From Pseudobdellovibrionaceae bacterium (lineage in GTDB: Bacteria > Bdellovibrionota > Bdellovibrionia > Bdellovibrionales > Bdellovibrionaceae), in NCBI GenBank assembly GCA_030158485.1, contig JAOASS010000005.1:1-63027 (forward strand): 63,027 bases of DNA. Direction: 5' to 3'. A program made the position numbers and the translations under genes. Under the pieces are notes generated by a model, which ran no database searches, had not been told where the DNA came from, and saw nothing but the letters and a program-made list of their open reading frames with translations. Shown here in pieces: positions 2,781-39,497 of this stretch (the stretch's first letter is position 1; each line of letters starts with the position of its first letter).

Positions 2781-2809
2781 ATGGGGTGTGATAACTCTCA
2801 AATCAAAGT

Positions 2810-4151: not shown

Positions 4152-4154
4152 GGT

Positions 4155-4808: not shown

Positions 4809-6419
4809 ATGATTAAAAATTCGTTTATTACAATTTTGTTTATCGTTTCGACAACAACTGCATTCGCCCAAAGTGTGACCAAAAATTTAGTCTATAAAAG
4901 TGCAAGTGGAGGCATTGAAAAAGATGGTAACTGGTTCTACACCGTTAGCCCCAATGGCCGCTTTATTGTTTTAGGGTGTGGCAATTATCAACTTTCAAAA
5001 AAAACGACAGCAAATGTTTGCGGTAATCTTGATAATCCTACAGCATTTTCAAATCTTCAGGTTTACGATACATACGAAAAAAAACTAAAATCAATAGACC
5101 TGAGCTCGGTTTTTGACGACTCTCGAAAAATATTTTTTTTCACTTTTAGCCAAGGATCAAATTTATTTTTGGCTGATTTATCTAATGATTTTGTCACCAC
5201 TCCAGATGAATTCATTCCGACAGATTATAAACAAAAGATTGTGAATATAAATTTAAGTACGTCCAAAGTTGAATCTGAATTTGTTTCGGCTAGCGGCAAA
5301 ATATGTACACAATTAGGTTATTATGCCGACCAAGTTGTTTGTGCACAAAACACTTTTCGCAAAACTTCAGAGGATGCGTATGTTCGTGATCTCGATTTAG
5401 TTTTTTATGACACAAAATTAAGCCAAGTTTTGAAATCAGTAGCCATATCAAAAGACAAATCATTTACAATGATTCCTCAGCTTAACGAGACTGAGTTTAC
5501 AACAGACAGTAGTAGCCGCCCTAATAAAATGCTTGTGGCTACTGAAGATTTGGGTGGTAATCTCCGCACTACAGGTGAATCTTTTAGTATTGAATTGAAA
5601 ACCGGTGATGTTAATTTATTACCTGAGTTGGATACAGAAAAACAGCGTTCTGAAATTCGATTTATTGGCAATTACAATCTCAACAACTCTTCCGTAAGTT
5701 TGTACTTACTCACTTATCATTCCCAATATAACGGCCCCAATAACCCGCCAATTAAAGATTCTCCTCAGTTTTTAATTCTTAACAGTAAGAGCGTAACTCT
5801 GGTTGATACGCCAAGGGCGTGGGGCGATTTTAATTTGAAAAGCATATTAGGCGTGAGCACCAATAAAAATGGACTGCCAGTTGTTTTCAAATCTAATCGA
5901 ATGAAAATTAGTGACGCGGACGACTCAAGCCAATTTACGATCAAGGGATATTCACTTTTTACTGGTGATGAATCAACTATTCTAAGTATTGACTTTGACG
6001 ATAAGCATTTTAACAGTTACGCCGTATGGGATGATAGTTCTGAAAGCTTCTTTTTGTTGAATGGCGTGAGGTCTGAGTCCGATGATGATAGTTATTCCAT
6101 TTCAGAGATTCAGCAAGTTGACATTAACGGTGTAACTTTTCAAAAAACTTCTGCATCAGTTAAGCAAGGTCAATTTTACTTAAACCCAAGATCATCAAGT
6201 CCAATCTTGATTGAATACAGTGAAGATGGTCATTCACTATTTAGTTCGATTTTTACTTATTCGACAGTGAAGAGAAAAATGTTATTGATAGACAAAGAAA
6301 GCTTTGTCATACCAATTGGTCCATATAGTGCGCCAATATTCGCAAGCGATCAGGGCATTGTGATTGTTTCGTCTTTATTCGAAAACCAGGATTACTCAAT
6401 TTATTATTACGAATATTGA
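4809..6419 (+). CDS. Secreted protein of unknown function, propeller-like composition
   Basis: A 536-residue exported protein; the signal peptide is MIKNSFITILFIVSTTTAFA. The mature chain is Ser/Asp/Asn-rich with alternating hydrophobic strands and recurring segments such as NGRFIVLGCG, GSNLFLADLSND and DGHSLFSSIF. This suggests a WD40/TolB-like beta-propeller, but I cannot count blades or name a family. A GGTGGGG ribosome site precedes the ATG. It diverges from the small cysteine protein across a 252-bp gap. No catalytic motif seen. Confidence 0.75.
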   Translation: MIKNSFITILFIVSTTTAFAQSVTKNLVYKSASGGIEKDGNWFYTVSPNGRFIVLGCGNYQLSKKTTANVCGNLDNPTAFSNLQVYDTYEKKLKSIDLSSVFDDSRKIFFFTFSQGSNLFLADLSNDFVTTPDEFIPTDYKQKIVNINLSTSKVESEFVSASGKICTQLGYYADQVVCAQNTFRKTSEDAYVRDLDLVFYDTKLSQVLKSVAISKDKSFTMIPQLNETEFTTDSSSRPNKMLVATEDLGGNLRTTGESFSIELKTGDVNLLPELDTEKQRSEIRFIGNYNLNNSSVSLYLLTYHSQYNGPNNPPIKDSPQFLILNSKSVTLVDTPRAWGDFNLKSILGVSTNKNGLPVVFKSNRMKISDADDSSQFTIKGYSLFTGDESTILSIDFDDKHFNSYAVWDDSSESFFLLNGVRSESDDDSYSISEIQQVDINGVTFQKTSASVKQGQFYLNPRSSSPILIEYSEDGHSLFSSIFTYSTVKRKMLLIDKESFVIPIGPYSAPIFASDQGIVIVSSLFENQDYSIYYYEY

Positions 6420-6462
6420 TAACTCACGATACTAACACTATAAAATTAGGCTTCGCGAATAA

Positions 6463-6672
6463 ATGAAATTGATTAAAGCGATGACGCCGCAGTTTTATCA
6501 ATCCAAGAAAACAGATCACAGATTCTTTCCTCATTGGACGCTAGCACTCTTGACCGGAATGCGCTCAGGCGAACCGTACAGTCTCAGATGGACCGATGTT
6601 GATTTGGTCACTGGCAAGATCAACATCAGTAAGGCCTGGACGGAGCTTCGAGGAATCCCAGTCTGCTTGTGA
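6463..6672 (+). pseudogene. Tyrosine recombinase (phage integrase) fragment
   Basis: The open frame contains WTLALLTGMRSGEPYSLRW followed by TDVDLVTGKINISKAW. This is the catalytic-domain start of phage-type integrases, including the first catalytic Arg in the TGMRSGE box. The later HxxR and Tyr boxes are missing: the frame stops soon after, inside a fragment of another gene on the opposite strand. It is therefore a non-functional remnant of a mobile element. No att site was found by eye. Confidence 0.7.
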
Positions 6673-6818
6673 ATGTCTGTAACCGATAGCCCTTTTAAAT
6701 AGAGAGGACCCACAATTTCGATAATTCGAGGTGACCTAAGATCAAAATATTCAATGAAATCAAGGGCCGGCCAATTGTTTCTAGTTGAAGGCTTTGGGCA
6801 TCCAATTTTCCTGTTCAA
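6636..6818 (-). pseudogene. Recombinase-like helix-turn-helix fragment
   Basis: On the minus strand about 60 residues precede the join with the integrase remnant. They include RIIEIVGPLYLKGLSVTDIH and KQTGIPRSSVQ, a helix-turn-helix like those at the C-terminus of resolvase/invertase-type recombinases or transposases. No catalytic part is present. The two fragments abut tail to tail near 6636-6660, which points to deletion or insertion scars rather than a working gene. Confidence 0.4.
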
Positions 6819-6848
6819 AAAATCAGGTTCTACGGTTCTACAAAAACC

Positions 6849-8153
6849 TTAGTAAACCCATTTCCGAAAAATTTCAGACAAACTTTTGCCTGCGGCGATC
6901 TCCATTGCTTTCTGAAAATCTTGAGACACGACCGACTTGAACTTATTTTCTTGCGTGTATTTTTTGACTCCGCCCCAGAAGGCTTTCTCTCCAACTTCTT
7001 TTCGAAGTGTATCTAAAAACAGGGCACCCTTGCTATAGGTAATAGCACGCTTAATTCCTAGAGATGGATAATCCCCAGCATAAGTAAGCGGCACATCAAA
7101 TTTAGCATCTATAGCTCTTTGATATCTTTGCAATGCTAATTCCATTTCCCTATCATAGGCCGCTTGTCCCCAACGATTTTGCTTGTACGCCGCTGTCATA
7201 AAAACAACGATGCCTTCGTTCAGCCAGAAGTGATCCCATGATTTACAGGTGATCATGTTTCCCCACCATTGATGAGCAAGCTCATGAACGATAATCCAAT
7301 CTTCGGTAGGATCTTGAAGAATGGGATCGATAAAACGCTTTCCTAAAATTGAAAAAGCATGTTTCTCCTGAGCCTCATCTTCATTGACGATAATTTGAGT
7401 GTATTTTTTAAAAGTTAACGGGACCCCCGATTTAGTTTCAAAAAATGAAATGACTCTTTTCGTGTCAGAAAATTTCCTTTTCAATTCGTTTGAAGTATCA
7501 GTCGCGCTTAAATATTCTAAAGTGGTCGATCTGACTGACTCACTTTCTATTGTGAATAGACCCACGGCAAATCCATATAGGTAGCTAGAAAACTTGCTGG
7601 GCTCAAACCAAGTTTCCTTTCTTATTTTATTTCCTACAGCGGATGTCGACTTAAGGGTTCCGCTCGCCACACTTTTCATCTCATTTGGCACTTTTAGTTC
7701 AAGCTCGAATTGCGCGCGCAAGGCAGGATCAGGACTACAAATCATCCAGGTGCAAGGTTCAAAATTTGTATAAACATATTTTTCACTCCATACGAGTCCT
7801 GGAGTGGACGTGCTTCTGTAATTAATCGTGAGATCATTTAATGACGCTCGTTTCAACTTCGGGAGCTCAATTTTAATATTTTTAGCCGTTGCTTCAAACA
7901 AAACACTTTTACCATTTAAGAAAACACTCTCTATCAACAAACCAGAAAGTGGAAACTCAGCAGCGTTCTTGTTTGATGAGTTAAATTTAATCGTAGTTGA
8001 GCCAGCAATCGATTTATTGACAAAATTAACTTCCAATCGAACCTGATACTTTTTAATATCTAAACTAGAATTCGCAATTGCTAAGTCCACAAGCAGAGCT
8101 GAAAATAAAGTAGAAATAGCTACTTTAAACTTAAATGACCTAAAAAATCTCAT
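6849..8153 (-). CDS. Secreted short M1-family metallopeptidase
   Basis: The ATG at 8153 gives 434 residues beginning with a signal peptide (MRFFRSFKFKVAISTLFSAL). The N-terminal half is the beta-rich domain of M1 aminopeptidases. The catalytic zinc motif is HELAHQWWGN, followed at the family spacing by the second Glu in FWLNEG. The exopeptidase box GxMEN is not recognisable; the corresponding stretch reads IIVNEDEAQEKHAF. The chain ends soon after the thermolysin-like domain, so it lacks the C-terminal helical repeats of full M1 enzymes (600-900 residues). Known: M1 enzymes trim N-terminal residues. Inferred: periplasmic or secreted, perhaps altered specificity. An in-frame upstream start at 8336 is unlikely. 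Confidence 0.85.
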   Translation of the reverse strand: MRFFRSFKFKVAISTLFSALLVDLAIANSSLDIKKYQVRLEVNFVNKSIAGSTTIKFNSSNKNAAEFPLSGLLIESVFLNGKSVLFEATAKNIKIELPKLKRASLNDLTINYRSTSTPGLVWSEKYVYTNFEPCTWMICSPDPALRAQFELELKVPNEMKSVASGTLKSTSAVGNKIRKETWFEPSKFSSYLYGFAVGLFTIESESVRSTTLEYLSATDTSNELKRKFSDTKRVISFFETKSGVPLTFKKYTQIIVNEDEAQEKHAFSILGKRFIDPILQDPTEDWIIVHELAHQWWGNMITCKSWDHFWLNEGIVVFMTAAYKQNRWGQAAYDREMELALQRYQRAIDAKFDVPLTYAGDYPSLGIKRAITYSKGALFLDTLRKEVGEKAFWGGVKKYTQENKFKSVVSQDFQKAMEIAAGKSLSEIFRKWVY

Positions 8154-8442
8154 CACAAGCGCATCGATAACGCATTGAACGAGTTCCCTCAAGAACCAAG
8201 TCTCTCGGAGCTCCGCGCATCGAAAGTAGTGTATCCGAAAGATTGTTCTCAGAATCAATGATTCTGATTCAGCGGAATTTCTATCTCGCTGCTTTGGGAC
8301 AAGGGACACCTCACACGGCGCTTCGAGCGTCTTCAAGATCTGGTTTTCCGGAACTGCTAAACAGACAATAACGCAATGTTTTCAGGTGGTTAGATCGGCC
8401 AATTGGGCTATGATTCAACAAAGTAAAAGCAAGGAGTCTTTT

Positions 8443-8598
8443 ATGGAAAAGAAGAAAGTAAATTTACCGCAAAAAGGTGCGGGAAGACGATTAGCGGATC
8501 GCCTTGAAAAGCTGGGTCAACAAAAGCCCCCCAAAGCATTGATCAACAAGCTCAATCAAAACGACCGAGAAAAGGTCGCTCTAGCACGGGAGTTTTAA
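8443..8598 (+). CDS. Small basic protein
   Basis: A 51-residue protein, Lys/Arg/Gln-rich (MEKKKVNLPQKGAGRRLADR), with no Cys and no membrane segment. An AAGGAG ribosome site at 8431-8436 fixes the ATG at 8443. Its stop codon lies two bases before the TTG that starts a signal peptide at 8600, so it probably forms an operon with the HExxH protein downstream. No family recognised; it could bind nucleic acid, but nothing shows this directly. Confidence 0.6.
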   Translation: MEKKKVNLPQKGAGRRLADRLEKLGQQKPPKALINKLNQNDREKVALAREF

Positions 8599-8640
8599 TT
8601 TGAACATTTTAAGTCTCATTTTTTTACTCACAATCAGCTT

Positions 8641-9342
8641 TTGCCAAATGATGCTATTGTGCCCGTTGTGAAGATAAAACTTATTTTTGAAGCCCACATT
8701 TCTGATAATAAAGGAAAGAAACAACTCATTCCGATTTCGATTATCGAGAGCTATCAAGAACCGAAGACCACTTCCATGAGATTGGGAATGGCCGAATTAA
8801 AAGATGACCGAGACTCTTTTCAGCTTGTAGTCGCACATGAGTACGCCCATCTCGTAATTGAAAATGCCAGCCGGAATGCCGGCTCAACTCGAAAAGATGC
8901 TGAGAGTATCGAGTTTTGGTCCAAACCTATCTACGAGGGTGTTGCCGATCTACTTGCGAGTTGGGCACTCAGGTCAGAATTTACGGCAGGACGAGATAAC
9001 TGGTCCGCCCAAAATTTGAACGAATATTCAAACTTAGACCAAGCTAAAAAAGCTAAAGATAACACCGTTGAAAAAGCCAGACGTGCATTCAAAAAAATGG
9101 AGCTGATCCCTAAATTTTCTATTTATGAAGACTGGCTAAAAAAGATTGAGAAATATGTTTCTGCAAACGGAGGCAGTGATCCTTACGCCGAAGGTCGATG
9201 GCTCGCTGGCTCCATTCGAACCGCAGCAACAACTCCGGAAAAACAGAAAAAAATCGCGGACGCTCTAGTTAATATGGCGCGATCAGGAGTTATGGAAAAT
9301 GACATAAGTCGTTTCCAGAAAACATTAATAAACAAGTTATAG
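8641..9342 (+). CDS. HExxH protein, signal peptide out of frame (possible pseudogene)
   Basis: The open frame gives 233 residues with HEYAH (in LVVAHEYAHLVIENA), followed after about 30 residues by YEGVADLLASW. This pair gives two His and a Glu/Asp, a plausible zinc site of a zincin-like peptidase. The frame begins with a weak TTG at 8641. Just upstream in the next frame, a TTG at 8600 with a good GGGAG site at 8588-8592 reads MNILSLIFLLTISFCQ, a signal peptide, and then hits a stop (TGA) shortly after 8660. A one-base deletion therefore appears to separate signal peptide and enzyme. Either the gene is broken, the base is a sequencing error, or frameshifting joins them. Confidence 0.6.
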   Translation: MPNDAIVPVVKIKLIFEAHISDNKGKKQLIPISIIESYQEPKTTSMRLGMAELKDDRDSFQLVVAHEYAHLVIENASRNAGSTRKDAESIEFWSKPIYEGVADLLASWALRSEFTAGRDNWSAQNLNEYSNLDQAKKAKDNTVEKARRAFKKMELIPKFSIYEDWLKKIEKYVSANGGSDPYAEGRWLAGSIRTAATTPEKQKKIADALVNMARSGVMENDISRFQKTLINKL

Positions 9343-9455
9343 CGACTAATCACTCTATCCACTTAACCCCGCCCACGAAATCCACACCTGTGTTGGCCTA
9401 GTTCCCTGGTGACCATTCGTTTGATTTAGGTTAAGTTCGGAATGACGAGGTCAGT

Positions 9456-9824
9456 ATGAAAATGAACACGGTGGATGACCTACATTCACATAGCGTTTAT
9501 AAAGATGGGAAAAAGCATACTTGGTACGTCAAACGTCTTTGGAACTTGGCCACTCACTTACCCGAATTCGATTTCGAAATTTCGTCATTCGTAGGCTTTG
9601 ACGAGGACTTTTGGTTTGGTGATCGATTCAAGCCCACAATCGGAAAAGTCTTGGAACATTGTCGGAAAATAAATGATGCCGACAATAGCCATCCGATCAT
9701 TATAAGCGCGGACGGTCTTATCATGGACGGCGTTCATAGAATCTGTCGGGCTTACCTGGAAGGAAAAAAAACGATTCGTGCCGTGAAGTTTGACAAAACT
9801 CCTGAACCCGATCTCATCACATGA
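9456..9824 (+). CDS. ParB/sulfiredoxin-fold domain protein
   Basis: A 122-residue cytoplasmic protein. The C-terminal half has PIIISADGLIMDGVHRICRA followed by a YLEGKKTIRAVKF strand. This is the pattern of the ParB N-terminal/sulfiredoxin fold, in which the D-G-x-H-R loop binds nucleotide phosphate in relatives. No helix-turn-helix is attached, so it is not a standard partition protein. GAGGT precedes the ATG. Its TGA overlaps the next ATG by four bases (ATGA), so the two proteins are probably made together. Confidence 0.65.
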   Translation: MKMNTVDDLHSHSVYKDGKKHTWYVKRLWNLATHLPEFDFEISSFVGFDEDFWFGDRFKPTIGKVLEHCRKINDADNSHPIIISADGLIMDGVHRICRAYLEGKKTIRAVKFDKTPEPDLIT

Positions 9825-10297
9825 TTTTTTTAAAACCTGAAGAGTATCTGCCAAAAATTGAAGCCATTTTTAAAATCGTTGAGAACCGAATCCGCAATTT
9901 ACTCCCAAATGCAGAAGTCGAACACATTGGCTCTTCTGCAATTAACGGCGCAATTTCGAAAGGCGATCTCGATATCCTGGTTCGAACTTCGAAGGATGAC
10001 TTCACTGGCGCGCTTTCGACAATTCAATCCTTGGGTTTCTCGATTAAAAAAGAAACTCTTAGAACTGACTCACTGTGCATGCTGGAAACACAGGAGTTTG
10101 ACGCTGATGTCGCAATTCAACTGATTGAAGGCGGGTCCGAATTCGAAGATTTTGTCAAATTCAGAGACCACCTAAACACTACTCCCGAACTCGTGAAAAA
10201 ATATAATCTTCTTAAAATCAAATCGATGGAACTCACTCCGGAAAAATATCGCCAAATTAAGTCAGAATTTATCCAAAGCATTCTCAAATCCAAATAA
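9821..10297 (+). CDS. GrpB-like (UPF0157) nucleotidyltransferase-fold protein
   Basis: A 158-residue protein. Residues about 33-55 read VEHIGSSAINGAISKGDLDI. This fits the GrpB/UPF0157 family and the polymerase-beta nucleotidyltransferase pattern, GS followed by DxD-like acidic residues on a strand (GDLDILV). A third acidic residue may be in FDADVAIQL. Known: GrpB proteins are predicted transferases of largely unknown substrate. Translation is coupled to the ParB-fold gene by the ATGA overlap. Confidence 0.75.
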   Translation: MIFLKPEEYLPKIEAIFKIVENRIRNLLPNAEVEHIGSSAINGAISKGDLDILVRTSKDDFTGALSTIQSLGFSIKKETLRTDSLCMLETQEFDADVAIQLIEGGSEFEDFVKFRDHLNTTPELVKKYNLLKIKSMELTPEKYRQIKSEFIQSILKSK

Positions 10298-10331
10298 CGC
10301 ATTAGAAGACGTCCGCCTAGACGGGTATAAT

Positions 10332-11090
10332 TTACGCCAATGTAAAGAAATTCAGCAACTTTTTTTCAAGCGATAAAAAATCTGGTCCAAGTAACTTTTC
10401 AATCTGAGTGCTTGAAAAGTTCAAAGCAACTTTTCTTGTTTCAACAAAAAAATGATGTTTTTGATTCAACCACTTTCCCCATGCCGCCTGAAGAAAAAAA
10501 TCGCGCTCTTCTTCTTCGGTCTCGGGACTTACGGCTCCCTGGCAATATGCAATTTCGTTTTCGCTCATTCCTAATTCAAAAATCACTGCACGGGCTAATT
10601 CCCACTCAAAATGGTTCAAGTATTTTTCGACGTCAGCCCAAAACTCAAGACCCTTTTTAGCATGATCACTTTTGCAAAAATACGTTGCACAAACTCCGGG
10701 TCGTTCCTCCCAGATTGAACACTGATTTTCTTGTTGAGAAAAAAAGGGACAAAGCAATTCTTCTTTTTGACCAAAAGCTTTTTTTCCCAACTGATCTACA
10801 CGGTTCTGATGTTTTGCGGTCGGAAAAAGGCCCACTGGCAACAAGACTCCTCGATCTAAAGATTGATTTACTTTTTTTTCATTAATAGCACCTAAACTAA
10901 AATTTGGAACATAAGGAAAATAAGTACAACATTTCAAATGATTTTTGAAAGGACCTTTATCGCGTGTCAATCCAGTGGGCTTAACCATCGCACAATTTTG
11001 ACACGTAGCTGATGTTTCTTTAAGTGATCCTGGAAGCCTTTTTGCTAACCACGGAGAATAGGAAAAAGGAAAAAATAAGTTGGAGCTCAC
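10332..11090 (-). CDS. Cysteine-cluster (YkgJ-like) metal-binding protein
   Basis: A 252-residue soluble protein. Cys clusters are CQNC near residue 30, KCCTYFP near 53, CPFF near 114, and CSIWEERPGVCATYFC around 123-138. This is the arrangement of the CxxCxxCC zinc/iron-chelating YkgJ family. The ATG overlaps the stop of the upstream CueR-type regulator by four bases, so it is translated from the regulator's transcript. That linkage suggests a part in metal handling; the bound metal is not known. Confidence 0.65.
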   Translation of the reverse strand: MSSNLFFPFSYSPWLAKRLPGSLKETSATCQNCAMVKPTGLTRDKGPFKNHLKCCTYFPYVPNFSLGAINEKKVNQSLDRGVLLPVGLFPTAKHQNRVDQLGKKAFGQKEELLCPFFSQQENQCSIWEERPGVCATYFCKSDHAKKGLEFWADVEKYLNHFEWELARAVIFELGMSENEIAYCQGAVSPETEEEERDFFLQAAWGKWLNQKHHFFVETRKVALNFSSTQIEKLLGPDFLSLEKKLLNFFTLA

Positions 11091-11488
11091 GCTTTTCCGC
11101 TTTCTAAGAGCAAATTTTCAATAATAGGACAATCTGGCCGACTGTCTCCGTGACAGTTTTGTGAAAGCTTCTTTAAACTTTGCACCATCTGCTGCATCTC
11201 GGAAATTTTTTGCTCTAAGTTTTTAATGTGAATTGAGGTCAATAACTTCACTTCGTGGCTGGATCTGGATTTATTCTTCCAAAGACTGATTAACTTTTTT
11301 ATTTCTTTCATGGAAAACCCAAGACCTCGAGCACGCTTAATAAACTTTAAAAACTGAACGTCATTTTCTAAATACGTGCGGTAGCCACCTTGTGTTCTGG
11401 AAGCTTTTGGAATAAGTCCGATGGACTCATAGTGACGTATTAATTTGGCATTAACGCCGGATGTCTTCGCTAAATCACCTATTTTCAT
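11087..11488 (-). CDS. cueR: CueR-type MerR-family copper-responsive regulator
   Basis: A 133-residue MerR-family activator. The N-terminal winged helix is MKIGDLAKTSGVNAKLIRHY followed by ESIGLIPKASRTQGGYRTY. A dimerisation helix spans about 70-108. The C-terminal loop CHGDSRPDCPII has the two Cys spaced as in E. coli CueR (CPGDDSADCPII), typical of sensors of +1 ions such as Cu(I), Ag(I) and Au(I). It diverges from a small His-rich exported protein, and the gap holds a MerR-type promoter. The metal class follows from the Cys loop; the exact ion is inferred. Confidence 0.85.
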   Translation of the reverse strand: MKIGDLAKTSGVNAKLIRHYESIGLIPKASRTQGGYRTYLENDVQFLKFIKRARGLGFSMKEIKKLISLWKNKSRSSHEVKLLTSIHIKNLEQKISEMQQMVQSLKKLSQNCHGDSRPDCPIIENLLLESGKA

Positions 11489-11516
11489 TAAAATATCCTG
11501 TTCATAAAAAAGACTC

Positions 11517-11549
11517 TTGACCTTCCAACGACTGGAAGGTGAAAAATAT
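11517..11549 (+). promoter_or_regulatory. CueR/MerR-type promoter with dyad operator
   Basis: A -35 box TTGACC at 11517-11522 is followed by a dyad ACCTTCC-AACGACT-GGAAGGT at 11520-11540. An A/T-rich -10 lies around 11542-11549, giving a spacer of about 19-21 bp instead of 17. This long spacer with a central dyad is the hallmark of MerR-family targets, and ACCTTCC...GGAAGGT closely resembles known CueR boxes. It points toward the gene starting at 11582. The regulator gene lies on the other side. Confidence 0.85.
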
Positions 11550-11581
11550 CTTTAAGAATCAAAATTTTCAAGGAGAATTCT

Positions 11582-11971
11582 ATGAATCCTGCTATTTTAG
11601 CATTTCTCATTATTTTAATAACTTCAACATTTGCGACAGCTCATGGTGATGAAGCTCCAGGTCCACATGGTGGACACATTCAAATGCCAGCCAATTTTCA
11701 TACCGAAGTGATCGCAAAAGATGATCAAACATTTCATATTTATCTAACTGACATGGAATTTAAAAATCCTTTAACGACTAGTTCTGAAGTCAAAGTCAGT
11801 CACCTTGTGAACGGTAAAAAGACTTCTCTTAAGTGTCGCTCAAGAAAAAATTACTTTATTTGCCAAAAAAACCAGAAGATGACCTCTGGTACTTTAATCA
11901 TTCAGGCTACTCGAAATAAAATTGTTGCCACTTCGGAAGCCCGCTACGAATTACCACTTAAGCCATTTTGA
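11582..11971 (+). CDS. Exported His-rich putative copper-tolerance protein
   Basis: A 129-residue protein; the signal peptide is MNPAILAFLIILITSTFATA. The mature N-terminus begins HGDEAPGPHGGHIQMP, with His and Met spaced to bind copper, followed by a beta-rich domain with two Cys (KCRSRKNYFICQ). AAGGAG lies before the ATG. It is driven by the CueR-type promoter 33 bp upstream. Role inferred: periplasmic copper binding or buffering. The 3' end overlaps the convergent zinc-finger gene by 28 bases. Confidence 0.75.
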   Translation: MNPAILAFLIILITSTFATAHGDEAPGPHGGHIQMPANFHTEVIAKDDQTFHIYLTDMEFKNPLTTSSEVKVSHLVNGKKTSLKCRSRKNYFICQKNQKMTSGTLIIQATRNKIVATSEARYELPLKPF

Positions 11972-12271: not shown

Positions 12272-12913
12272 TCAAATAGTCTCCGAACCTATGTGGCCCT
12301 CTAAACATTTACGAAGCTTATCTTTGGCTCGAAAAAGCAGAACTCTTAAGTGAGAGACTTGAATGCCTAATAAATTACAAATTTGATCAGGATTTTCTTC
12401 TTCGACTTCTTTCATCACAAAAGCTGCTTTTTGCTGCTCACTTAGGCCTTCTAAGCATTCTTTAATTATTTCAGTTGATTGTCGAAGTTCTAATATCCGA
12501 TCCGGACTTTGTGGAATTGTTTTCCACCACCCATCAAGAGTAAAAGCGTGATTCATAACACGTTCAGAATCATCTTCATATTGAGTTCGACCAAGTGCCC
12601 TTCGATGTTCTCGAATTTTGTTAAATAAAATGCCACAGATAAATGTTCTGATTTGTGATCGACCTTCAAATTTTTCCAAATTAAGAAAAAAAGTTTCCCA
12701 AGTTTGATGAATCACTTCCTCCGCACTTTCATCATAAAGAGCATTCGAAATACAAACTCGAATTAGAAATGGATTCACTTCATAAAAAAGACTTTTTAAA
12801 TAAAGGGGATCACGTTCCATCAAAAGACGAATATTTACTGAATCAACATATTGTTTTGAAGGATGTTCTGCTTTAAACTTGTCCCGAGTATCCATCTTGA
12901 TTTTTTTACTCAT
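12272..12913 (-). CDS. ECF-family RNA polymerase sigma factor
   Basis: A 213-residue sigma-70 family protein. Region 2 spans about 45-115, with SAEEVIHQTWETFFLNLEKF and RSQIRTFICGILFNKIREHR. Region 4 spans about 145-205, with LEGLSEQQKAAFVMKEVEEE and QICNLLGIQVSHLRVLLFRA, the -35-binding helix-turn-helix. No region 1 or 3, hence ECF type. AAGGAA precedes the ATG. It is in an operon with the ZAS factor. Targets unknown; the nearest candidate loci are the copper cluster and its own upstream region. Confidence 0.9.
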   Translation of the reverse strand: MSKKIKMDTRDKFKAEHPSKQYVDSVNIRLLMERDPLYLKSLFYEVNPFLIRVCISNALYDESAEEVIHQTWETFFLNLEKFEGRSQIRTFICGILFNKIREHRRALGRTQYEDDSERVMNHAFTLDGWWKTIPQSPDRILELRQSTEIIKECLEGLSEQQKAAFVMKEVEEENPDQICNLLGIQVSHLRVLLFRAKDKLRKCLEGHIGSETI

Positions 12914-28412: not shown

Positions 28413-28626
28413 TTTTAAATCCCCCTCAAGAATGGCCGCATTCAAGCCTAAATTGAAAAAGGAGTCAAAAATTTAAACTTTAAAAGTTTAATGTCACATT
28501 GTTTAAAAAATAGACAGTCTCTTGCCGTTAAAACCCTCCTCTTGAAGTCAAATGTGGCCCTCAACTTGTAAGACAGAAAGCTCGAGTCTTCAGATTCCAA
28601 ACGTTGTCACTTATTTTGAGGATAAA

Positions 28627-31494
28627 ATGATGAGCTCTGCGTTCTTTAGAAAAACTGTTGTAATAGGTCTTTTTCATGGACTCTGCCTGACTCCTTACGC
28701 TTTCGGGCAAGAAGACTCGACATCAGGAGTTAATTCCACTTATTCATTTTCAGGAGCTTGCTCAACCCAAGGGTCTTGGACCCAAGCCGCACTTTCGCAA
28801 ACACAACGGCTGAAGGAAATTTTAGTTAATTTAAAAGATAATCCAGCCTGCCAATCTTTAAAATCGAGCATGATTAATTCGCTTCAAGGTATGGAACAAA
28901 ATTTAACACAAATTCAAAAAGACGGCGGAGACAATTTAGGACGCCTATCAAGTTTACCTAATGAAATAACAGGACTTCGAACTTTCATGAGAGAAAAATC
29001 GGCCTTTCGAGCTGATGTGATTCAAGTTCTAATGGGAAAAGCAATTGAACAAACAGCTTTGACTTCAAAATTTTCAAGTCAAAATTCAAATTCGGTCGCA
29101 GAGTCTGTTTTATCGTTAGGAAAAAGAGTCAAGCAGTCTTCAATGACAGGAATCAATCTGTTTAATTCAACACTGAGCTCCCTTCAGCAAACTCAAGCCA
29201 ATTGCATGGATGACGCACAAGGTGCCTCTGCCATTTCAGCTATGGTTCAAATGCTGTCATCCTTTGCCTCTTCAGGACAAACGGCAACGGGGTCTCAGCT
29301 TGCGATGGCTGTTCAAAATTTAGGTCAATACATGGGCCGCGAAAAAAAATATGTTGATGCTTTAAGAAAATTAAATGACCGCGAATTTATCACTTCGATG
29401 TCTTGCTTGATGGAAGTCACATCAGAAGGTTTTTGCTCGACATTAGACGCGCGCTACTTGCTTGAAGAAATCACCGACAACCACCGTTTCAACAAAAAAG
29501 AATTCACCAATTCTCGCACCGGAAAAAAAGAACTCAAAATCGTGGGTGAAAGTGAAAATTTCAAAAAAGTTTTAGAAAAAGGGCCTTTAGCTGGATACTA
29601 CATATTATCTCGACAAGTTCCCATCATTACCGACTGGATTCAAAAAGTTCAGTACGGAATTACACCTCAACTGCCGACAGAAGCGACATTCAAAATCGAT
29701 ACGGCTAATAACGTTCAAGGTCACTTGAATTCCCGTTACGGAATCGAAGGAACCTATAATATGCAAATGAATCTTTTAAAAGATTTAAAAGATTTTAATG
29801 CTAAGCAAACATATGTTTTACAAATGGTAAAAGATGTCGCCTCTTCGATGTCTCGTGGCGGTGGATCAAGTGAAAATTTTTACTCAAAAGTTTCTTCCGA
29901 TAACGAACTCATGTTCCGACTTTTAGGTATGCAAGTTCCAGGCGAAGTCTTAGGTGACAGCCAAGGTGGAAATATGAATTTCCTGAATAATCCTAGCGGT
30001 TGGTTGGATGCAAAGTATCGTAAATTGCCGGATTTTAGCAACCCAGAACAGCTGGCTTTACGAGTTAAAGATAATATGCAAACTATTTTTAAGCAATCAA
30101 CAGATATCGCGATTGCTTACTACAATAAGTATTTTATCGTTGATAAACTTCAAGTCATAAATGATTCCCTTTTGGGTCTTGATTCTAACGTGCGCGATGC
30201 TCTTGTGAACATTGACCAGTATTTAAAGAATTTAAGCTCTCGAATTGTAAAAGAAAAATATGATCCAACAATTTTACCTATTATCACTCAAACTCGGGTT
30301 CGAATTGGTCGGATTTTAGCTCGCTACAGTGATATCAGAACGCAAGGACTTGAGCTGGTACAAAAAGTTTCAAAAGATGGAACTTTTACTACTTTGGACG
30401 AGATTGAAATGGATAAAAATTTAAGAAAATTAGGCGATTCTTTGATGCAAGAAGTTTACGACCAATTCGAAATTCTATTAGCACGATCAGGATGGTTATC
30501 AAATCGAATGGCAGGATTTGTCCTTCATGATTACACAATGAGTCTTAAAAAACGTGACTACTTTGATCAGTACACAGAAGACTTAATGTTTGCCACAGGC
30601 TATTCAGCTTTGAATCAAATGATGAACACGGCCCAAATTGAATTTTCAAAATCTAAGCTGGATATGGACCGCGCTCTGAATATTTACCAAACAAATTTAA
30701 ATGCTTTAGAAGAAGTTTCTCAATCAGTATTTACTCGGCATATTCTAAATCTTAAAATGAAAGCTCTGAATAAAAACTTAACTGAAGGCGATGTTTTTAG
30801 AATGACTCAAGAAGCTGCTTTCAACAAAGAATACGAACAAGTTCCAGGTGAAGAAACAAATAAAGTCCAAAGATACATCAGAGGAAAACTACATCAATGG
30901 TGGACTGATGCCAGCTTGAGCGATAGTGAACAGTATGGTGCGCCTGGATTTTCTTGGAAAATCAATCCCTTTTCATATTTATGGAAAATGATGATGGGTC
31001 AAAAAGATTATGTCATCACACCGGGTTCACACTTCGGTACAGCACAAACAGAAATGTCTTTACTTTGCACTCAAACTCTTGCTTTTCCTAATATGAAAGC
31101 TTACTGGGGACTTTGCAAAGAAGCGGTTTTACTTTCGCCCTTACACAAACAAAATATTCAGGATACTGATTTGAAAAAGTTGTTGAACGATTACTTATCT
31201 GTCAATTACATTCAAAAAGCCTATGAAAACATAGAACCCTCGAAAGCCAAAATCACAGGACATGATCGAGGCCTCAACTTTGAAGCCCGCGTATGCGCGC
31301 TTCGTGATTACAATCGTCGAAATGAAGTCGCAAAAGTCACAGCGGCGATGCGTGACGATGGTGATACTTATAAAAATGAATTTACAAAAGTAGTTGAGGA
31401 AACTGTGGAACTGGTTCCAAATACACCCAAAATGGAATCGATCGAATCAGAAGAAGATTCATCAGAAGAAGGCCTCAGTATCCAACGACGATAA
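28627..31494 (+). CDS. Large exported helical protein of unknown function
   Basis: The ATG at 28627 behind GAGGA gives 955 residues; a second ATG follows at once. Signal peptide MMSSAFFRKTVVIGLFHGL continues to about AFGQ. The mature protein is mostly helical with Gln/Asn-rich linkers, few Cys (ACSTQGSW, PACQSLK) and an acidic C-terminus (ESEEDSSEEG). No catalytic motif or known domain was seen. It is followed 50 bp later by a GT39 glycosyltransferase on the same strand. Size and export suggest a surface or periplasmic structural protein. Confidence 0.75.
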   Translation: MMSSAFFRKTVVIGLFHGLCLTPYAFGQEDSTSGVNSTYSFSGACSTQGSWTQAALSQTQRLKEILVNLKDNPACQSLKSSMINSLQGMEQNLTQIQKDGGDNLGRLSSLPNEITGLRTFMREKSAFRADVIQVLMGKAIEQTALTSKFSSQNSNSVAESVLSLGKRVKQSSMTGINLFNSTLSSLQQTQANCMDDAQGASAISAMVQMLSSFASSGQTATGSQLAMAVQNLGQYMGREKKYVDALRKLNDREFITSMSCLMEVTSEGFCSTLDARYLLEEITDNHRFNKKEFTNSRTGKKELKIVGESENFKKVLEKGPLAGYYILSRQVPIITDWIQKVQYGITPQLPTEATFKIDTANNVQGHLNSRYGIEGTYNMQMNLLKDLKDFNAKQTYVLQMVKDVASSMSRGGGSSENFYSKVSSDNELMFRLLGMQVPGEVLGDSQGGNMNFLNNPSGWLDAKYRKLPDFSNPEQLALRVKDNMQTIFKQSTDIAIAYYNKYFIVDKLQVINDSLLGLDSNVRDALVNIDQYLKNLSSRIVKEKYDPTILPIITQTRVRIGRILARYSDIRTQGLELVQKVSKDGTFTTLDEIEMDKNLRKLGDSLMQEVYDQFEILLARSGWLSNRMAGFVLHDYTMSLKKRDYFDQYTEDLMFATGYSALNQMMNTAQIEFSKSKLDMDRALNIYQTNLNALEEVSQSVFTRHILNLKMKALNKNLTEGDVFRMTQEAAFNKEYEQVPGEETNKVQRYIRGKLHQWWTDASLSDSEQYGAPGFSWKINPFSYLWKMMMGQKDYVITPGSHFGTAQTEMSLLCTQTLAFPNMKAYWGLCKEAVLLSPLHKQNIQDTDLKKLLNDYLSVNYIQKAYENIEPSKAKITGHDRGLNFEARVCALRDYNRRNEVAKVTAAMRDDGDTYKNEFTKVVEETVELVPNTPKMESIESEEDSSEEGLSIQRR

Positions 31495-33296: not shown

Positions 33297-33536
33297 ATGA
33301 AAGTCATCGCTATCGCTATCGCATTCGTAGCTTCTGCAGCAATTGCTAACCCAACTGCTACTGGAACAACAACGACAACAACAGAAACAACTCACGCAGC
33401 TCCTCATGGTAAAGCTCATGGCAAAACTATGAAAATGGACAAAAAAATGGATGCAGCTCACACAATGACAGCTCCTACTGCTTGTACTAAAGAAGATGAA
33501 AAAGCTGGCAAATGTAAACCAGAAATGACTAAGTAA
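33297..33536 (+). CDS. Small secreted His/Met/Lys-rich protein
   Basis: A 79-residue protein. Signal peptide MKVIAIAIAFVASAAIA is followed by a Thr-rich stretch (TGTTTTTTETT) and then HAAPHGKAHGKTMKMDKKMD. The C-terminal half has two Cys. AAAAGGAGAACAC precedes the ATG, an unusually strong ribosome site, and a terminator follows, so it looks like an abundant monocistronic message. His, Met and Cys could bind copper or another metal; this is inferred from composition. Confidence 0.75.
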   Translation: MKVIAIAIAFVASAAIANPTATGTTTTTTETTHAAPHGKAHGKTMKMDKKMDAAHTMTAPTACTKEDEKAGKCKPEMTK

Positions 33537-33583
33537 TTTTATTTACTTTGGTCAAAAAGACTTTTAAGTAAGTTTTTTTCTAG

Positions 33584-33613
33584 AACCCACATTTAACTAA
33601 ATGTGGGTTTTTT
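33584..33613 (+). terminator. Rho-independent terminator
   Basis: AACCCACATTT (33584-33594), loop AACT, AAATGTGGGTT (33599-33609) and a T run form a textbook terminator. It lies 48 bp after the stop of the small His-rich protein and before the convergent greB gene (stop at 33629). Confidence 0.9.
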
Positions 33614-34147: not shown

Positions 34148-36010
34148 TTGCTAAATAAAACCGAAAAAAATCTTGTGAACTCAAAAATAAAAAGACTTAG
34201 CATAGCCGCCATACTTTCCGGTTCGGGATTTGCCGCCACTATTTTATGGGACAAAGCCACGGATAAATCTCTCATTAACACAGGTGAAACTCCGCTTGCT
34301 CAAGTCGGAACTGTAACAGATGAAGTTCTACGACGCCCACCGACTCGTTTGCTTTGGCACTCGGTCAATACAGGTGATCCACTTTTTAATGGCGAAGCAA
34401 TTCGAACAAGTACTCTGGGTGAAGTCCGAGTTCAATTTGAAGACGGTCGTTATATCGATATCGAACCTGATTCTCTGATAGTCCTTTCAAAAGCTGAAGG
34501 TGAAATTTCTTTAGACTTGATGGAAGGGGGACTTTTCGTTAACGCAAAATCAGATGGCTCAAGCGCAACTGGACAGTCAGGCCTCGTTTTAAATTCAGCA
34601 CAAGGCAAAGTTGATCTGAGTGGCGCAAGTGCTAGCTTATCAAAATCTGAAGGTCAGAAACTAAATCTTCAAGTTGTTGATGGTAGTGCGAAAATTAAAT
34701 CGAAAGATGGACAGACTAAAGAAATCACAAGTGGTAACTCTGGAACATTGGGTTCAACAGGTCTTCAATTTGATTCAAGTCAGCTTAAAATTATTTCACC
34801 TTTACCCAATAAAACCACTTACATTGATGCCACAAAAAGACCTGATATCAACTTTCAGTGGAGTGGTTTTCCTAAAACATGGAAAGTATCAGTCCAAGTG
34901 GGTGCTGGTCGACGACAACTTAAAGATTCTGCAACAACTGCTGAACCTGGTATCGAAAAACTGACTTCGTCACTCTCATTAGGTAAGCACTACTGGAAAT
35001 TGGTAGCGCGTGATCCTGCTTCAAATGAAATTAAAGCGGAAAGTCCCATTTACAGATTAGAAGTTTTAGCTCGAAGCACACCGACCCTTTTAGCGCCAAA
35101 CCCAAATGCTTCGATTGAAATTGAAAAGTTCCCCACAAGCATGGAATTCTTATGGCAAAAATCAACTGATGTCAGCCAGCTTATTCTTGAAGTTGCAAAA
35201 GATGCACAGCTCAAGCAAAAAGTTCTGACCCAAAGAGTTGAAAGCACTGACAAATACAATTTAGAAAATTTAGCAGAAGGAACTTACTTCTGGAGAATGA
35301 CTTCATTTTACCCTGATATCAAAGAGCCTTGGACCGGTCCCGTTCAACAATTTAAACTCATAAAAAAAGCTGATACTAAACCAGTTTCCGTGAGCGTGAC
35401 TTGGGATCAAGTTAATCCACAACAATTTTTTATAGAAGAACCTAACATGAAATTAGCTTGGACAGCAGGAACACAAACTGAACTTGTTAGCCAATGGAAA
35501 GTTTCTTGGAAAGAAGAAAATGACGTCAGCAGTGCTGGCGAAATGATTGAAACTTCCGATCGAAATTTAGCGGCAAAAATAAAAAAAACGGGTCGCTATT
35601 TAGCTAGTGTTGAAGCCTTCGACAAACAAGGTCGCATCATGGGAAAATCGGAACCACTCTTGGTGAATATTGAACCTAAGCCCGTACTTCCTGCACCACA
35701 ATTACTTCCGGCCGAAGGGCAAATAGTTTCACAAGCCGATGGCCGTGGAGAATTAAAATGGACTGCCATTGAAGGGGCGCAAGAATACGAAATGAAAGTT
35801 GTCAGTAAAGAAGGAAAAGAGCTTTTGAATCGAAGATTCAAGAATAATAAAATGACACTTCTGAATCTGATGCCAGGCGAATATTCAGTTCAAATCGTCA
35901 CAATTGATCAACATGGAAGACCGAGTGCTAATCCGACAACAAGAAGCATGATTGTTCCTGATAAAAGCAATTTAAGAGCCCCTGCTTTAAAGAAAGTGAA
36001 GGTCAATTGA
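34148..36010 (+). CDS. FecR-domain, membrane-anchored protein with FN3-like modules
   Basis: About 620 residues from TTG at 34148 (GTG at 34175 is an alternative). An N-terminal membrane helix (about 17-36, LSIAAILSGSGFAATILW) anchors it. A FecR domain follows (about 65-140; GEAIRTSTLGEVRVQFEDGR and PDSLIVLS). Several beta-sandwich modules then end with LKWTAIEGAQEYEMKV, the same W-x2-I-x2-A-x2-Y signature seen in the next protein. FecR domains usually pass an envelope signal to a sigma factor; none is adjacent here. Its TGA overlaps the next ATG by one base. Confidence 0.8.
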   Translation: MLNKTEKNLVNSKIKRLSIAAILSGSGFAATILWDKATDKSLINTGETPLAQVGTVTDEVLRRPPTRLLWHSVNTGDPLFNGEAIRTSTLGEVRVQFEDGRYIDIEPDSLIVLSKAEGEISLDLMEGGLFVNAKSDGSSATGQSGLVLNSAQGKVDLSGASASLSKSEGQKLNLQVVDGSAKIKSKDGQTKEITSGNSGTLGSTGLQFDSSQLKIISPLPNKTTYIDATKRPDINFQWSGFPKTWKVSVQVGAGRRQLKDSATTAEPGIEKLTSSLSLGKHYWKLVARDPASNEIKAESPIYRLEVLARSTPTLLAPNPNASIEIEKFPTSMEFLWQKSTDVSQLILEVAKDAQLKQKVLTQRVESTDKYNLENLAEGTYFWRMTSFYPDIKEPWTGPVQQFKLIKKADTKPVSVSVTWDQVNPQQFFIEEPNMKLAWTAGTQTELVSQWKVSWKEENDVSSAGEMIETSDRNLAAKIKKTGRYLASVEAFDKQGRIMGKSEPLLVNIEPKPVLPAPQLLPAEGQIVSQADGRGELKWTAIEGAQEYEMKVVSKEGKELLNRRFKNNKMTLLNLMPGEYSVQIVTIDQHGRPSANPTTRSMIVPDKSNLRAPALKKVKVN

Positions 36011-37668
36011 TGCTTCGCTTTTTGTCCCTGGTTTTGTTTTTCACTTTTTCTTTTGGAAGCGTTCATGTCAAAGCTTCTGAAACCTATCGCCGTCTTGTGA
36101 ATTTCGAATGGGAACCTATTGAAGAAGCTAAATACTACGAAATAGAAATCAGAAAAAAAAGTAAGAGTAGTAAAATCTCGACTTTTAAAACAGAAACTCC
36201 AGAATGGTCGGGAAAGCTGAGTGTTGGACGTTATGAATTTAGACTTCGCTCACTTGATAAAAGAAAAGTTCCAGGGGATTGGAGTGGCTATGCTGAACTT
36301 GATGTTTTACTTGAAGCTGTTAAACCAAAATCTCCACTAGCTGGAGAACAAGTCAAAGCGACTGATCCTGAAAAACAAGAAGTTCAATTTGAATGGCAAG
36401 AAACACCTGGTGCTAGTGGTTATACAATTGAAATCTTAAATAGCTTAAATGAAGTAATTGCGACCGAAAAAGTTTCATCACCGAAGTTTTCAAAAACTTT
36501 GAATACAGCGGCTGAATACACTTGGAAAGTAAAAGCTATTTCTGCTGACGGATTAGAAAGCGAAGCGAATGAAGTTTCAAAATTCAGTGTGATTGGTCCT
36601 AAACTAGACAAAACTAAAATAGAAAAGCCCGATAATGAATTCGTAAGGGAAGTTAAATGGTCTGCAGTTGATAAAGCGGAAAACTATGAAGTTATTGTTG
36701 GGAAGTACAATCCTCAAATAAAAAAATGGCAAAAATTTAAAGAATTTGAGAATTTAAAAGAAACCAGTCTTAACTTTGAATCCGATTGGCCAGGCGGCCA
36801 ATACAAATTGAATATAAAATCAAAAGCATTGGCACGAGAATCTTCGGATTTTGCAAGCGTGTCTTTTCCTGTCAGAACGGGAAATCGAACTCCTGCAGCC
36901 GAATATGTCCAAACGATGAGAAAATCGATCGATCGCGTAGACGGTTGGTTTGCCCACGCTAGTTGGTATGCAAGTTCAATCGCTCTCAAAACACGATTTC
37001 GTGACACTTTATCTTTTGGTACAAACGCCGTAACCGGAACTGGCCGCTTAGGTGTTGGACTTTTAAAGTCGGATTCCCCATGGGGCTTTCAATTTATTAT
37101 GGATGCAGGTGGATATATTTTCGAAAATAAAGTTTATAATTTTTTTGGAACTGAAGTTTCTGCTGTTTATAGACAGAACTCGTCGGACAGAGCAGAAGTC
37201 AGATACTTAACAGGTCTTTTCTTAAGAGAGTTCCCAGCTCTTTGGACAACATCTACAAGTACAATTCTGAATACCTTAACACCTAATAATGTAGATCGAA
37301 ACTACACGAAAGGTGGAGTTATCGGAGTTCACGGCGGTATCGAATATTGGTATTCAATTACTCCAAAAATTGGATTTCAAGCCAATGCTCATCTTTACTT
37401 GCCAATGACAGAAACAGAACTTCCTAATGGTGGAAAATATTCTGGAACTGATTTTAATTACAGTTTAGGCGTCCTGGGTAGCTACCGCTATTCAAGTCGG
37501 CTCACAGGACTAATGGGTGTAAACTTGAGAGAAGAAAATTTTACTTATTCAGATAATTCAGATCCAACGGGCTGGTCAACCGGGGTTTTGGCAGGAAGAT
37601 CATCGACCAATGTGAAGACTTCGATTTCTGGGATCTATATTAATTTGATAGCAGAGTATTCGTTTTAA
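36010..37668 (+). CDS. Outer-membrane protein with FN3 repeats and C-terminal beta-barrel
   Basis: The ATG at 36010 overlaps the previous stop (TGATG). 552 residues: signal peptide MLRFLSLVLFFTFSFGSVHV, then three repeats marked by FEWEPIEEAKYYEIEI, FEWQETPGASGYTIEI and VKWSAVDKAENYEVIV (near residues 30, 125 and 215). The second half is a barrel-type region of alternating strands, ending IYINLIAEYSF with the C-terminal Phe expected of BAM substrates. The FN3 modules are shared with the upstream FecR protein, so the pair may contact one another across the periplasm. Confidence 0.75.
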   Translation: MLRFLSLVLFFTFSFGSVHVKASETYRRLVNFEWEPIEEAKYYEIEIRKKSKSSKISTFKTETPEWSGKLSVGRYEFRLRSLDKRKVPGDWSGYAELDVLLEAVKPKSPLAGEQVKATDPEKQEVQFEWQETPGASGYTIEILNSLNEVIATEKVSSPKFSKTLNTAAEYTWKVKAISADGLESEANEVSKFSVIGPKLDKTKIEKPDNEFVREVKWSAVDKAENYEVIVGKYNPQIKKWQKFKEFENLKETSLNFESDWPGGQYKLNIKSKALARESSDFASVSFPVRTGNRTPAAEYVQTMRKSIDRVDGWFAHASWYASSIALKTRFRDTLSFGTNAVTGTGRLGVGLLKSDSPWGFQFIMDAGGYIFENKVYNFFGTEVSAVYRQNSSDRAEVRYLTGLFLREFPALWTTSTSTILNTLTPNNVDRNYTKGGVIGVHGGIEYWYSITPKIGFQANAHLYLPMTETELPNGGKYSGTDFNYSLGVLGSYRYSSRLTGLMGVNLREENFTYSDNSDPTGWSTGVLAGRSSTNVKTSISGIYINLIAEYSF

Positions 37669-37685
37669 TTATGGGAGGATTGACT

Positions 37686-39497
37686 ATGCGTATTCCTATT
37701 TCAGCCAAACTGATTGTCCTCACCACTTTACTGTTGGTTAGCGTCACTGTTGCCATCGCAATTCAGAGTTCTAGCTACTTTGAAAAAACATCAAAGCAAC
37801 GCGAAGAGAGTATTAATTTAGACTACGCATCTGCAAAATCAACAGAAGTTGAAAATTTACTTACAAGCTTGGTTGGGAAAACTCAAGTTGCATCGACTCT
37901 GCTGATGAAATCGCAAGATGCAGCTTCCGAATTTAAACTTAATTTTAATCAAGAACCTGACATGCTGGGTGTTGAAATTTATGAATCTCAAGCCGGAGGT
38001 TCTATTACAACACGCTCTTCTGAAATTAAAGAAGAAGAATTTATTAAACAAAAAGTCGATAAAACGTATTTTGCACAACTCAAACAAAAAATGCCATTTC
38101 CCTTTAAAAGTGTGTATCAAGGACAAGTTGAAGTCTTGAATTGGTCACACTCGCAAAAACCTTCAATCCTAGTAGTGGGAATACCACTGATAAAAGACCC
38201 TTTTGGTCGCATCACACACGTTGCAATTGGATACTTTAAATTAGCTCTGATTCAGAAGCCTTTTTCTGAAAAGAAGGAAAGATCATTCCTGCTTTTAGAC
38301 AGACGTGGTTATGTTTTAGGCAGCTCGGATGAAAATTTAGCTCTGACACAAACAGCTCAAGCCCAATCTGAAATCTTTAAGCTTTCCACAGCCAGCAAAA
38401 GCCCAAGAGGACAAAAGCCGATTAAGCTCGATGGGGCTAATCATTTTGGTGCTTTTTCAAAAACTCGTTTTGGGGTCACGGCCTATTCGATTATTTCTGA
38501 AGATATTATTTTAGAACCCGCACGTGAAGTAAAAAGAAAAGCTTTCTACATGGCGGGACTTGTACTGTCAGGATCGATTTTTTTGATCTTCTTGTTCTCG
38601 ATGTCACTGACATCACCGATTGAAACTTTAGCTGAACTAATTGGAATCGTTTCAAAAGGTAATTTTGATGTTAAAGCTTCTGATCGGATTAAGTCTGTTT
38701 TTCAAGATGAAGTAAAAGATCTTGCTTTTGCATTCGACAATATGACGGAAGGCTTAAAAGAACGAGACAAAGTAAAAAACTTATTTTCAAAGTTCCATGG
38801 GTCATCTGTCACAGATGATTTGATGAACCAAGAAGTCGGACTTGGTGGCCAGAAAAAAGATGTCGTAGTTTTCTTTTCTGATATTCGTGGCTTCACTGCT
38901 TTTTCTGAAAAACGATCACCAGAAGAAGTTGTTGAGATGTTGAATGAATATTTCGAAGTAATGGTTGGAATTATCAATAAACAAGGCGGCGTTGTTGATA
39001 AGTTTATCGGAGACGCGATCATGGCCGTTTGGGGCGCGCCTAAAGGCACAGACAAAGATGCCCACAATGCAACAATGGCTTGTATTCAAATGCGAGTCGC
39101 ACTAGTTGAGTTGAATGATAAACGTAAAGCTCGAGGACAGCCTCCCCTTGCAATGGGAATTGGTCTGCATGCAGGAAGTGTTATTTCGGGAACGATCGGC
39201 AGTACAGAGCGCATGGAATATACTGTGATCGGCAATACCGTCAATACGGGTTCTCGAATTGAAGCTTCAACAAAAGCTTTTGGTTCTGATCTTTTAATCA
39301 GCGAAGAAGTTGTCAAACAAATTGGTGATGCTTTTATCGTTGAGCTGGCAGGTGCTGCAGAAGTAAAAGGTCGATCTGAACCTTTGAAAATGTTTAAAGT
39401 CAGAGGCTACAAAGAAAATGGACTCGATATCATTGTGCGAACAGAGTACTCTGATTATGAAGCAGAAAAAGTCGACAAAGTGAAAGTTTCTGCATAG
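37686..39497 (+). CDS. Membrane class III adenylate/guanylate cyclase
   Basis: The ATG at 37686 with GGAGG at 37674-37678 gives 603 residues. TM1 is at about residues 5-27, an extracytoplasmic sensor domain follows to about 285, TM2 lies near 290-308 and a HAMP-like linker near 310-360. The cyclase domain has the metal-binding Asp in VVFFSDIRGFTAFSEKR and in DKFIGDAIMAVWGAP, plus the EYTVIGNTVNTGSRIE strand. The Lys before FIGD favours ATP as substrate. It follows the FecR/FN3 pair by 17 bases, so its sensor could read their envelope state. Confidence 0.92.
   Translation: MRIPISAKLIVLTTLLLVSVTVAIAIQSSSYFEKTSKQREESINLDYASAKSTEVENLLTSLVGKTQVASTLLMKSQDAASEFKLNFNQEPDMLGVEIYESQAGGSITTRSSEIKEEEFIKQKVDKTYFAQLKQKMPFPFKSVYQGQVEVLNWSHSQKPSILVVGIPLIKDPFGRITHVAIGYFKLALIQKPFSEKKERSFLLLDRRGYVLGSSDENLALTQTAQAQSEIFKLSTASKSPRGQKPIKLDGANHFGAFSKTRFGVTAYSIISEDIILEPAREVKRKAFYMAGLVLSGSIFLIFLFSMSLTSPIETLAELIGIVSKGNFDVKASDRIKSVFQDEVKDLAFAFDNMTEGLKERDKVKNLFSKFHGSSVTDDLMNQEVGLGGQKKDVVVFFSDIRGFTAFSEKRSPEEVVEMLNEYFEVMVGIINKQGGVVDKFIGDAIMAVWGAPKGTDKDAHNATMACIQMRVALVELNDKRKARGQPPLAMGIGLHAGSVISGTIGSTERMEYTVIGNTVNTGSRIEASTKAFGSDLLISEEVVKQIGDAFIVELAGAAEVKGRSEPLKMFKVRGYKENGLDIIVRTEYSDYEAEKVDKVKVSA

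Follow-up and report, generated by a model that had tools for sequence, protein, structure and literature searches.

A conserved set of FecR, FN3-barrel and membrane cyclase genes in Bdellovibrionota as a probable trans-envelope input to cAMP

In S. meliloti, signal perception by the NsrA-CyaK system needs both the outer-membrane protein NsrA and an inner-membrane cyclase (PMC7529298); NsrA is the receptor for CHASE2 cyclases and is genetically required for cyclic AMP (cAMP) signalling by CyaK (PMC7529298, PMC13001267). In Campylobacterota a cluster encoding a CHASE2 adenylate cyclase, a phosphodiesterase (PDE), a FecR-domain outer-membrane protein and a TPR protein was proposed, from genome context, to represent one pathway (PMC9239204). 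Here we describe a three-gene set in a 63,027-nucleotide stretch of DNA from a Pseudobdellovibrionaceae bacterium (contig JAOASS010000005.1, assembly GCA_030158485.1; this whole stretch is referred to as the window). It encodes a FecR protein (gene 1), a protein with fibronectin type III (FN3) domains and a beta-barrel (gene 2) and a class III membrane cyclase (gene 3). The set is widely conserved in Bdellovibrionota, and its products probably work as a single signalling unit that spans the envelope and controls cAMP.

The CHASE2 domain served to locate CyaK on pSymB. Immediately upstream of cyaK, and overlapping it, is a gene whose 1219-aa product combines a FecR domain (E=2.3e-15) with TPRs and has a C-terminal half resembling a barrel. 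From its pSymB position upstream of the CHASE2 cyclase, this gene is probably nsrA. The barrel in this protein is assigned from the published description and from the look of the sequence. In both systems a FecR domain and an outer-membrane barrel are encoded beside a membrane class III cyclase. However, NsrA is a single FecR-TPR-barrel polypeptide, whereas here FecR and the barrel belong to two proteins, both with FN3 domains; the FecR protein has a predicted inner-membrane anchor, while NsrA is an outer-membrane protein; and a single periplasmic sensor with HAMP stands in the cyclase where CyaK has CHASE2. The Campylobacterota cluster also brings a FecR-domain protein together with a cyclase, but it has a CHASE2 sensor and additional PDE and TPR genes, no separate FN3-barrel is reported for it, and its occurrence is sporadic, whereas the set described here is broad in Bdellovibrionota. 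A preliminary description of the locus knew of no described counterpart to an outer-membrane-to-cyclic-nucleotide pathway; these two systems are precedents, so this part of the proposal falls, while the unit itself gains support from the kept linkage presented below. The novelty lies in the split FecR/barrel form, the different sensor, the phylum-wide conservation, the conserved FecR tail that is disordered in the model and a FecR paralog linked to a SpoIIE phosphatase.

The source genome is 2.48 Mb in size and 98% complete. The three genes lie on one strand in an operon-like arrangement, as had been noted earlier:
34148..36010, + strand: gene 1, FecR-FN3 protein of 620 aa (open reading frame (ORF), Pfam FecR, ortholog alignment, AlphaFold; listed start TTG)
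36010..37668, + strand: gene 2, FN3-barrel outer-membrane protein (ATG 36010; the listed ORF begins at TTG 36007)
37674..37678, + strand: Shine-Dalgarno sequence GGAGG before ATG 37686 (sequence)
37686..39497, + strand: gene 3, periplasmic-sensor/HAMP/class III cyclase (ORF, Pfam, ortholog comparison; the listed ORF begins at ATG 37671)

The start of gene 1 is uncertain, ortholog alignment making GTG 34178 likelier. Its stop codon (TGA, 36008-36010) and the ATG of gene 2 form a TGATG junction at 36010, so that the overlap reported previously amounts to one base. For gene 3, ATG 37686 is the most likely start: GGAGG precedes this codon, and the orthologs begin with MRI. With this start the gap after gene 2 is 17 nt, in agreement with the earlier figure. 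Overlap, Shine-Dalgarno sequence and spacing are, as read from the sequence, the anatomy of one operon. Promoter and terminator scans at the locus gave a number of sites not above that in shuffled sequences, and no promoter was pinned down. The gene greA is divergent from the set.

The following features were located in gene 1:
34196..34252, + strand: N-terminal membrane anchor, residues 17-35, preceded by KR (hydrophobicity; model helix 3-43)
34397..34690, + strand: FecR domain, PF04773, the most conserved block of the protein
34790..35956, + strand: four FN3-like beta domains, residues about 215-603, boundaries approximate (AlphaFold; Foldseek matches to FN3 arrays)
35954..36007, + strand: C-terminal tail VPDKSNLRAPALKKVKVN, conserved and for the most part disordered in the model (alignment, AlphaFold)

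The Pfam match to FecR is significant (E=5.6e-7), and the AlphaFold model (mean predicted local distance difference test, pLDDT, 84) consists of the helix 3-43, a FecR beta domain and the four FN3-like domains; its best PDB matches in Foldseek are FN3 arrays. Of 30 orthologs, nearly all have their hydrophobic maximum close to the N-terminus. This maximum is preceded by Lys/Arg, and at most about 16 residues stand ahead of it, leaving no large cytoplasmic part. FecI/FecR/FecA resembles the present set in having a membrane-anchored periplasmic FecR domain and an outer-membrane partner. The Pfam FecR domain could be read as a sign of a classical anti-sigma pathway that merely adjoins a cyclase. 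We regard this as very nearly impossible: the anchor is preceded by about 16 residues at most, too few for an anti-sigma domain, no sigma gene lies within 20 kb and the barrel has no TonB or STN match in Pfam. Since the FecR protein has almost no cytoplasmic part, an output through a sigma factor is unlikely, and an anti-sigma role was rejected. The nearest match to sigma region 4 lies 22 kb from the FecR gene (12314-12472, minus strand, in a 213-aa frame) and is one of three in the genome, which upholds for this locus the view that the cyclase is the only output nearby. The differences from FecI/FecR/FecA are thus that an anti-sigma part and an adjacent extracytoplasmic function (ECF) sigma gene are missing, that the output is a cyclase, and that the 22-strand TonB-dependent STN receptor has a 10-strand barrel as its counterpart. 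A phage origin of the FecR gene was also rejected, as no match to phage was found.

The tail of gene 1, a stretch also written LRAPALKKVKVN, has a mean top-residue frequency of 0.66 vs 0.44 for the whole protein, and its last 12 residues (609-620) have pLDDT below 50. An AP-x-x-K-x-x-K-V form at the C-terminus was seen in nearly all close and many distant orthologs, and most FecR proteins of three-gene sets carry the tail. Being flexible and conserved, it may be a docking peptide.

In gene 2 a signal peptide is followed by three FN3 domains and, in the AlphaFold model (pLDDT 87), a barrel of 10 strands:
36088..36876, + strand: three periplasmic FN3-like domains (AlphaFold, fold match; motif RSLDKRKVPGDW in the first domain)
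36943..37662, + strand: 10-stranded beta-barrel (AlphaFold)

The barrel is built of ten long antiparallel strands over residues 313-552; FadL is among its fold matches, and the C-terminal residue of the protein is F or L. A signal peptide, an even number of strands and a C-terminal aromatic residue are all found in gene 2, as expected of an outer-membrane barrel. Ten strands and no STN or TonB_dep_Rec match in Pfam led us to reject its identification as a TonB-dependent receptor. The best-conserved stretch of the protein is RSLDKRKVPGDW, in the first periplasmic FN3 domain. The long loops 415-430 and 516-534 are hypervariable (conservation 0.16 and 0.22 vs 0.47 overall); if the termini are periplasmic, these loops must be outside. 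In the alignments conservation thus falls in the periplasmic parts and variability in the predicted outer loops, and this is the pattern predicted for a surface protein with a conserved partner inside. The fn3 matches of genes 1 and 2 in Pfam are sub-threshold, but their AlphaFold models match FN3 chains of fibronectin and contactin. A spurious FN3 call was rejected, given that the fold comparison is clear in spite of the weak Pfam result, and the FN3-type signature ascribed to both genes at the outset is borne out by these fold matches.

In gene 3, membrane helices at residues 14-32 and 291-309 enclose a periplasmic domain of about 260 residues, and two domains recognized by Pfam follow:
38595..38759, + strand: HAMP domain, PF00672
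38853..39392, + strand: class III cyclase catalytic domain, PF00211 Guanylate_cyc, E=5.8e-30

Catalysis by class III cyclases depends on two metal-binding Asp residues, a Lys/Thr(Asp) pair that specifies the purine and an Asn-Arg pair that acts on the transition state; a K/T pair points to ATP as the substrate. Residues D404, D448, K444, T518, N525 and R529 are invariant in 25 gene 3 orthologs, and the best PDB matches of the catalytic domain are adenylate cyclases. The predicted product of gene 3 has all the catalytic residues of a class III adenylate cyclase, and it probably makes cAMP rather than cGMP. No second class III cyclase domain was found in the genome. Six cNMP-binding proteins, one with a CRP-type helix-turn-helix, are encoded in the same genome, so cAMP has possible receptors. 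In Pfam the protein has no CHASE2 match and its sensor no dCache match; a weak dCache match was obtained only for a SpoIIE paralog (see below).

It can be suggested that the barrel is a solute channel feeding a small ligand to the cyclase sensor, so that the cyclase is the receptor and the role of FecR and FN3 domains is confined to holding the assembly together. FadL among the fold matches, a periplasmic cyclase domain of a size able to bind a ligand and the weak dCache match of the paralog are consistent with such an arrangement. We nevertheless consider it unlikely, as a 10-stranded barrel is narrow and FecR occurs in every family genome with the cyclase, even in one (G003) without a detectable barrel, which is unexpected of a passive holder.

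Conservation was analyzed in a family set of 61 genomes, with counts made by hand from the listings. A full-length cyclase ortholog is present in 47 of them, and two others hold only a fragment or a divergent copy. All 47 have a FecR ortholog (one only as a contig-end fragment) and 45 have the barrel. In the 12 genomes where the cyclase is absent, FecR and barrel searches give weak, paralogous matches only. Ten of these 12 belong to one genus, three other genomes of which keep all three genes; this indicates that the set was lost together at least once.

Linkage was scored at 72 cyclase loci, drawn from the family and from the phylum, with 8 kb as the limit for a partner. The preliminary description had proposed a check for conserved linkage across Bdellovibrionota and had allowed that the cyclase might have unrelated neighbours in most genomes. 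The result was the opposite: 52/72 loci have both FecR and the barrel no more than 8 kb from the orthologous cyclase. At these 52 loci FecR is upstream and co-directional in 31, upstream and divergent in 14, and downstream and opposite in 7. The three arrangements mean that the association has survived rearrangement. Loci with the set include those of Bdellovibrio bacteriovorus kdesi (L092), Bacteriovoracaceae (L114) and Oligoflexales (L112, L116). In genome G036, which is probably HD100, the triad is at 1.05 Mb, and its cyclase is probably bd1116. Elsewhere the genes are kept but separated: in G134, G206, G217 and G258 the FecR-barrel pair stays together away from a lone cyclase, and in G060 FecR and the cyclase adjoin while the barrel is alone elsewhere (G060:C1, L194 5631-7472). 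Linkage that survives re-ordering, together with joint loss, argues for one function rather than chance neighbours.

Several observations weigh against a single unit. G003 has FecR and the cyclase but no detectable barrel. Neither partner is near the cyclase in 12/72 loci, several of them at contig ends; G242 and G226 lack partner orthologs, and G301 has FecR and the barrel but no cyclase above threshold. The sampled genomes also share ancestry, so the 52 loci are not independent cases. FecR and the barrel might be a separate outer-membrane unit, with a role in transport, adhesion or structure, and share no more than a transcript with an independent cyclase. Barrel paralogs without a cyclase in G035 and G029, and one at G000:C15 (below) that has an anchor-FN3 partner but lacks a neighbouring cyclase, fit this explanation; linkage kept through three gene arrangements and the loss of the genes together make it highly improbable.

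Two further observations were made on the loci themselves. G279 and G283 have several diverged triad copies with differing gene orders (L184, L186, L190). A Bdellovibrio-type triad is also carried by a metagenome-assembled genome whose record is titled 'Streptomyces griseus' (L115); the title is probably a mislabel.

For a single unit of all three proteins, the reading we favour, the following mechanism can be proposed. The barrel protein would sit in the outer membrane with its variable loops outside and its three FN3 domains in the periplasm. From its inner-membrane anchor the FecR protein would reach across the periplasm with the FecR domain and four FN3 domains, and its conserved flexible C-terminal tail might dock on either the barrel protein or the sensor of the cyclase. 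The FecR protein would relay changes at the barrel to this periplasmic sensor, from which they would reach the catalytic dimer by way of HAMP, and the cAMP made would act on the cNMP-binding proteins of the cell. We infer physical contact, the direction of signalling and the nature of the ligand, which may be the prey surface, the envelope state or a solute. Alternatively, no external ligand would be involved: the FN3 arms would gauge the distance between the membranes or their integrity, and the cyclase would report envelope stress or a change of shape inside prey. The long FN3 stalks of both proteins and the periplasmic location of the conserved parts could be explained in this way; hypervariable outer loops are rather those of a surface receptor or of a surface under attack, and we judge such a sensor improbable.

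Related components were found at two other loci:
G000:C7 (L064) 1775-11589: second FecR locus, with FecR-FN3 protein, SpoIIE phosphatase, 158-aa protein, REC-TPR protein, PAS-Hpt-HATPase histidine kinase and a possible barrel
G000:C15 (L197) 6354-8860: barrel paralog of 636 aa with FN3 domains and barrel, whose gene overlaps that of a 198-aa anchor-FN3 protein

The genome encodes just one further FecR protein, which is FN3-rich and divergently oriented from a sensor-HAMP-SpoIIE-type phosphatase, the sensor-HAMP part of which matches that of the cyclase. This gene set recurs in several relatives (L077, L079, L080, L083). The 198-aa protein has no FecR domain and no cyclase nearby; it ends in LEAPEIKSITTED (LEAPEIKS), resembling the FecR tail. 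A FecR-like tail on a protein paired with a barrel hints that the tail belongs with the barrel; G003, where the tail is present and no barrel is detectable, speaks against this. It is conceivable, though doubtful, that FecR plus an outer-membrane barrel is a general sigma-independent trans-envelope input module in Bdellovibrionota with varied sensor-HAMP outputs (class III cyclase, SpoIIE-type PP2C phosphatase), in which the AP-x-x-K tail is the plug coupling FecR to the barrel and through which, in predators, contact with the prey or host envelope would be turned into cAMP. Loci L070-L076 encode proteins of 690-705 aa whose N-terminal sensor-HAMP is related but whose output differs; conserved genes of about 390 and about 435 aa adjoin them.

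In Bdellovibrio a cAMP-controlled cyclic di-GMP phosphodiesterase is known (PMC6717892). The HD100 adenylate cyclases bd0081, bd1116, bd2640 and bd3072 are annotated in the same paper, which names only the genes and describes no input, FecR or barrel partner. Bdellovibrio cyclases are annotated, but our literature searches found no paper describing an input to cAMP, and none describing this three-part unit; papers on Bdellovibrio with FecR or on bd1116-1118 yielded nothing about it, and for FecR with SpoIIE, only PMC9239204 was found. The three-part FecR/barrel/cyclase version kept throughout the Bdellovibrio phylum appears to be undescribed. It offers a directly testable candidate for an outside-to-cAMP input in a laboratory predator, and it suggests that FecR domains couple to non-sigma outputs in several phyla, which would change the reading of many FecR annotations.

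Upstream of the set, the window contains at 28552-31494 (+ strand) a gene for a protein of 980 aa that gave no match in Pfam at E 0.1. A small secreted ORF at 33298-33537 (+ strand) is rich in Lys, His, Met and Thr (MKVIAIAIAFVASAAIANPTATG...) and possibly encodes a metal-binding periplasmic peptide; it is followed by a strong hairpin terminator at 33582-33611.

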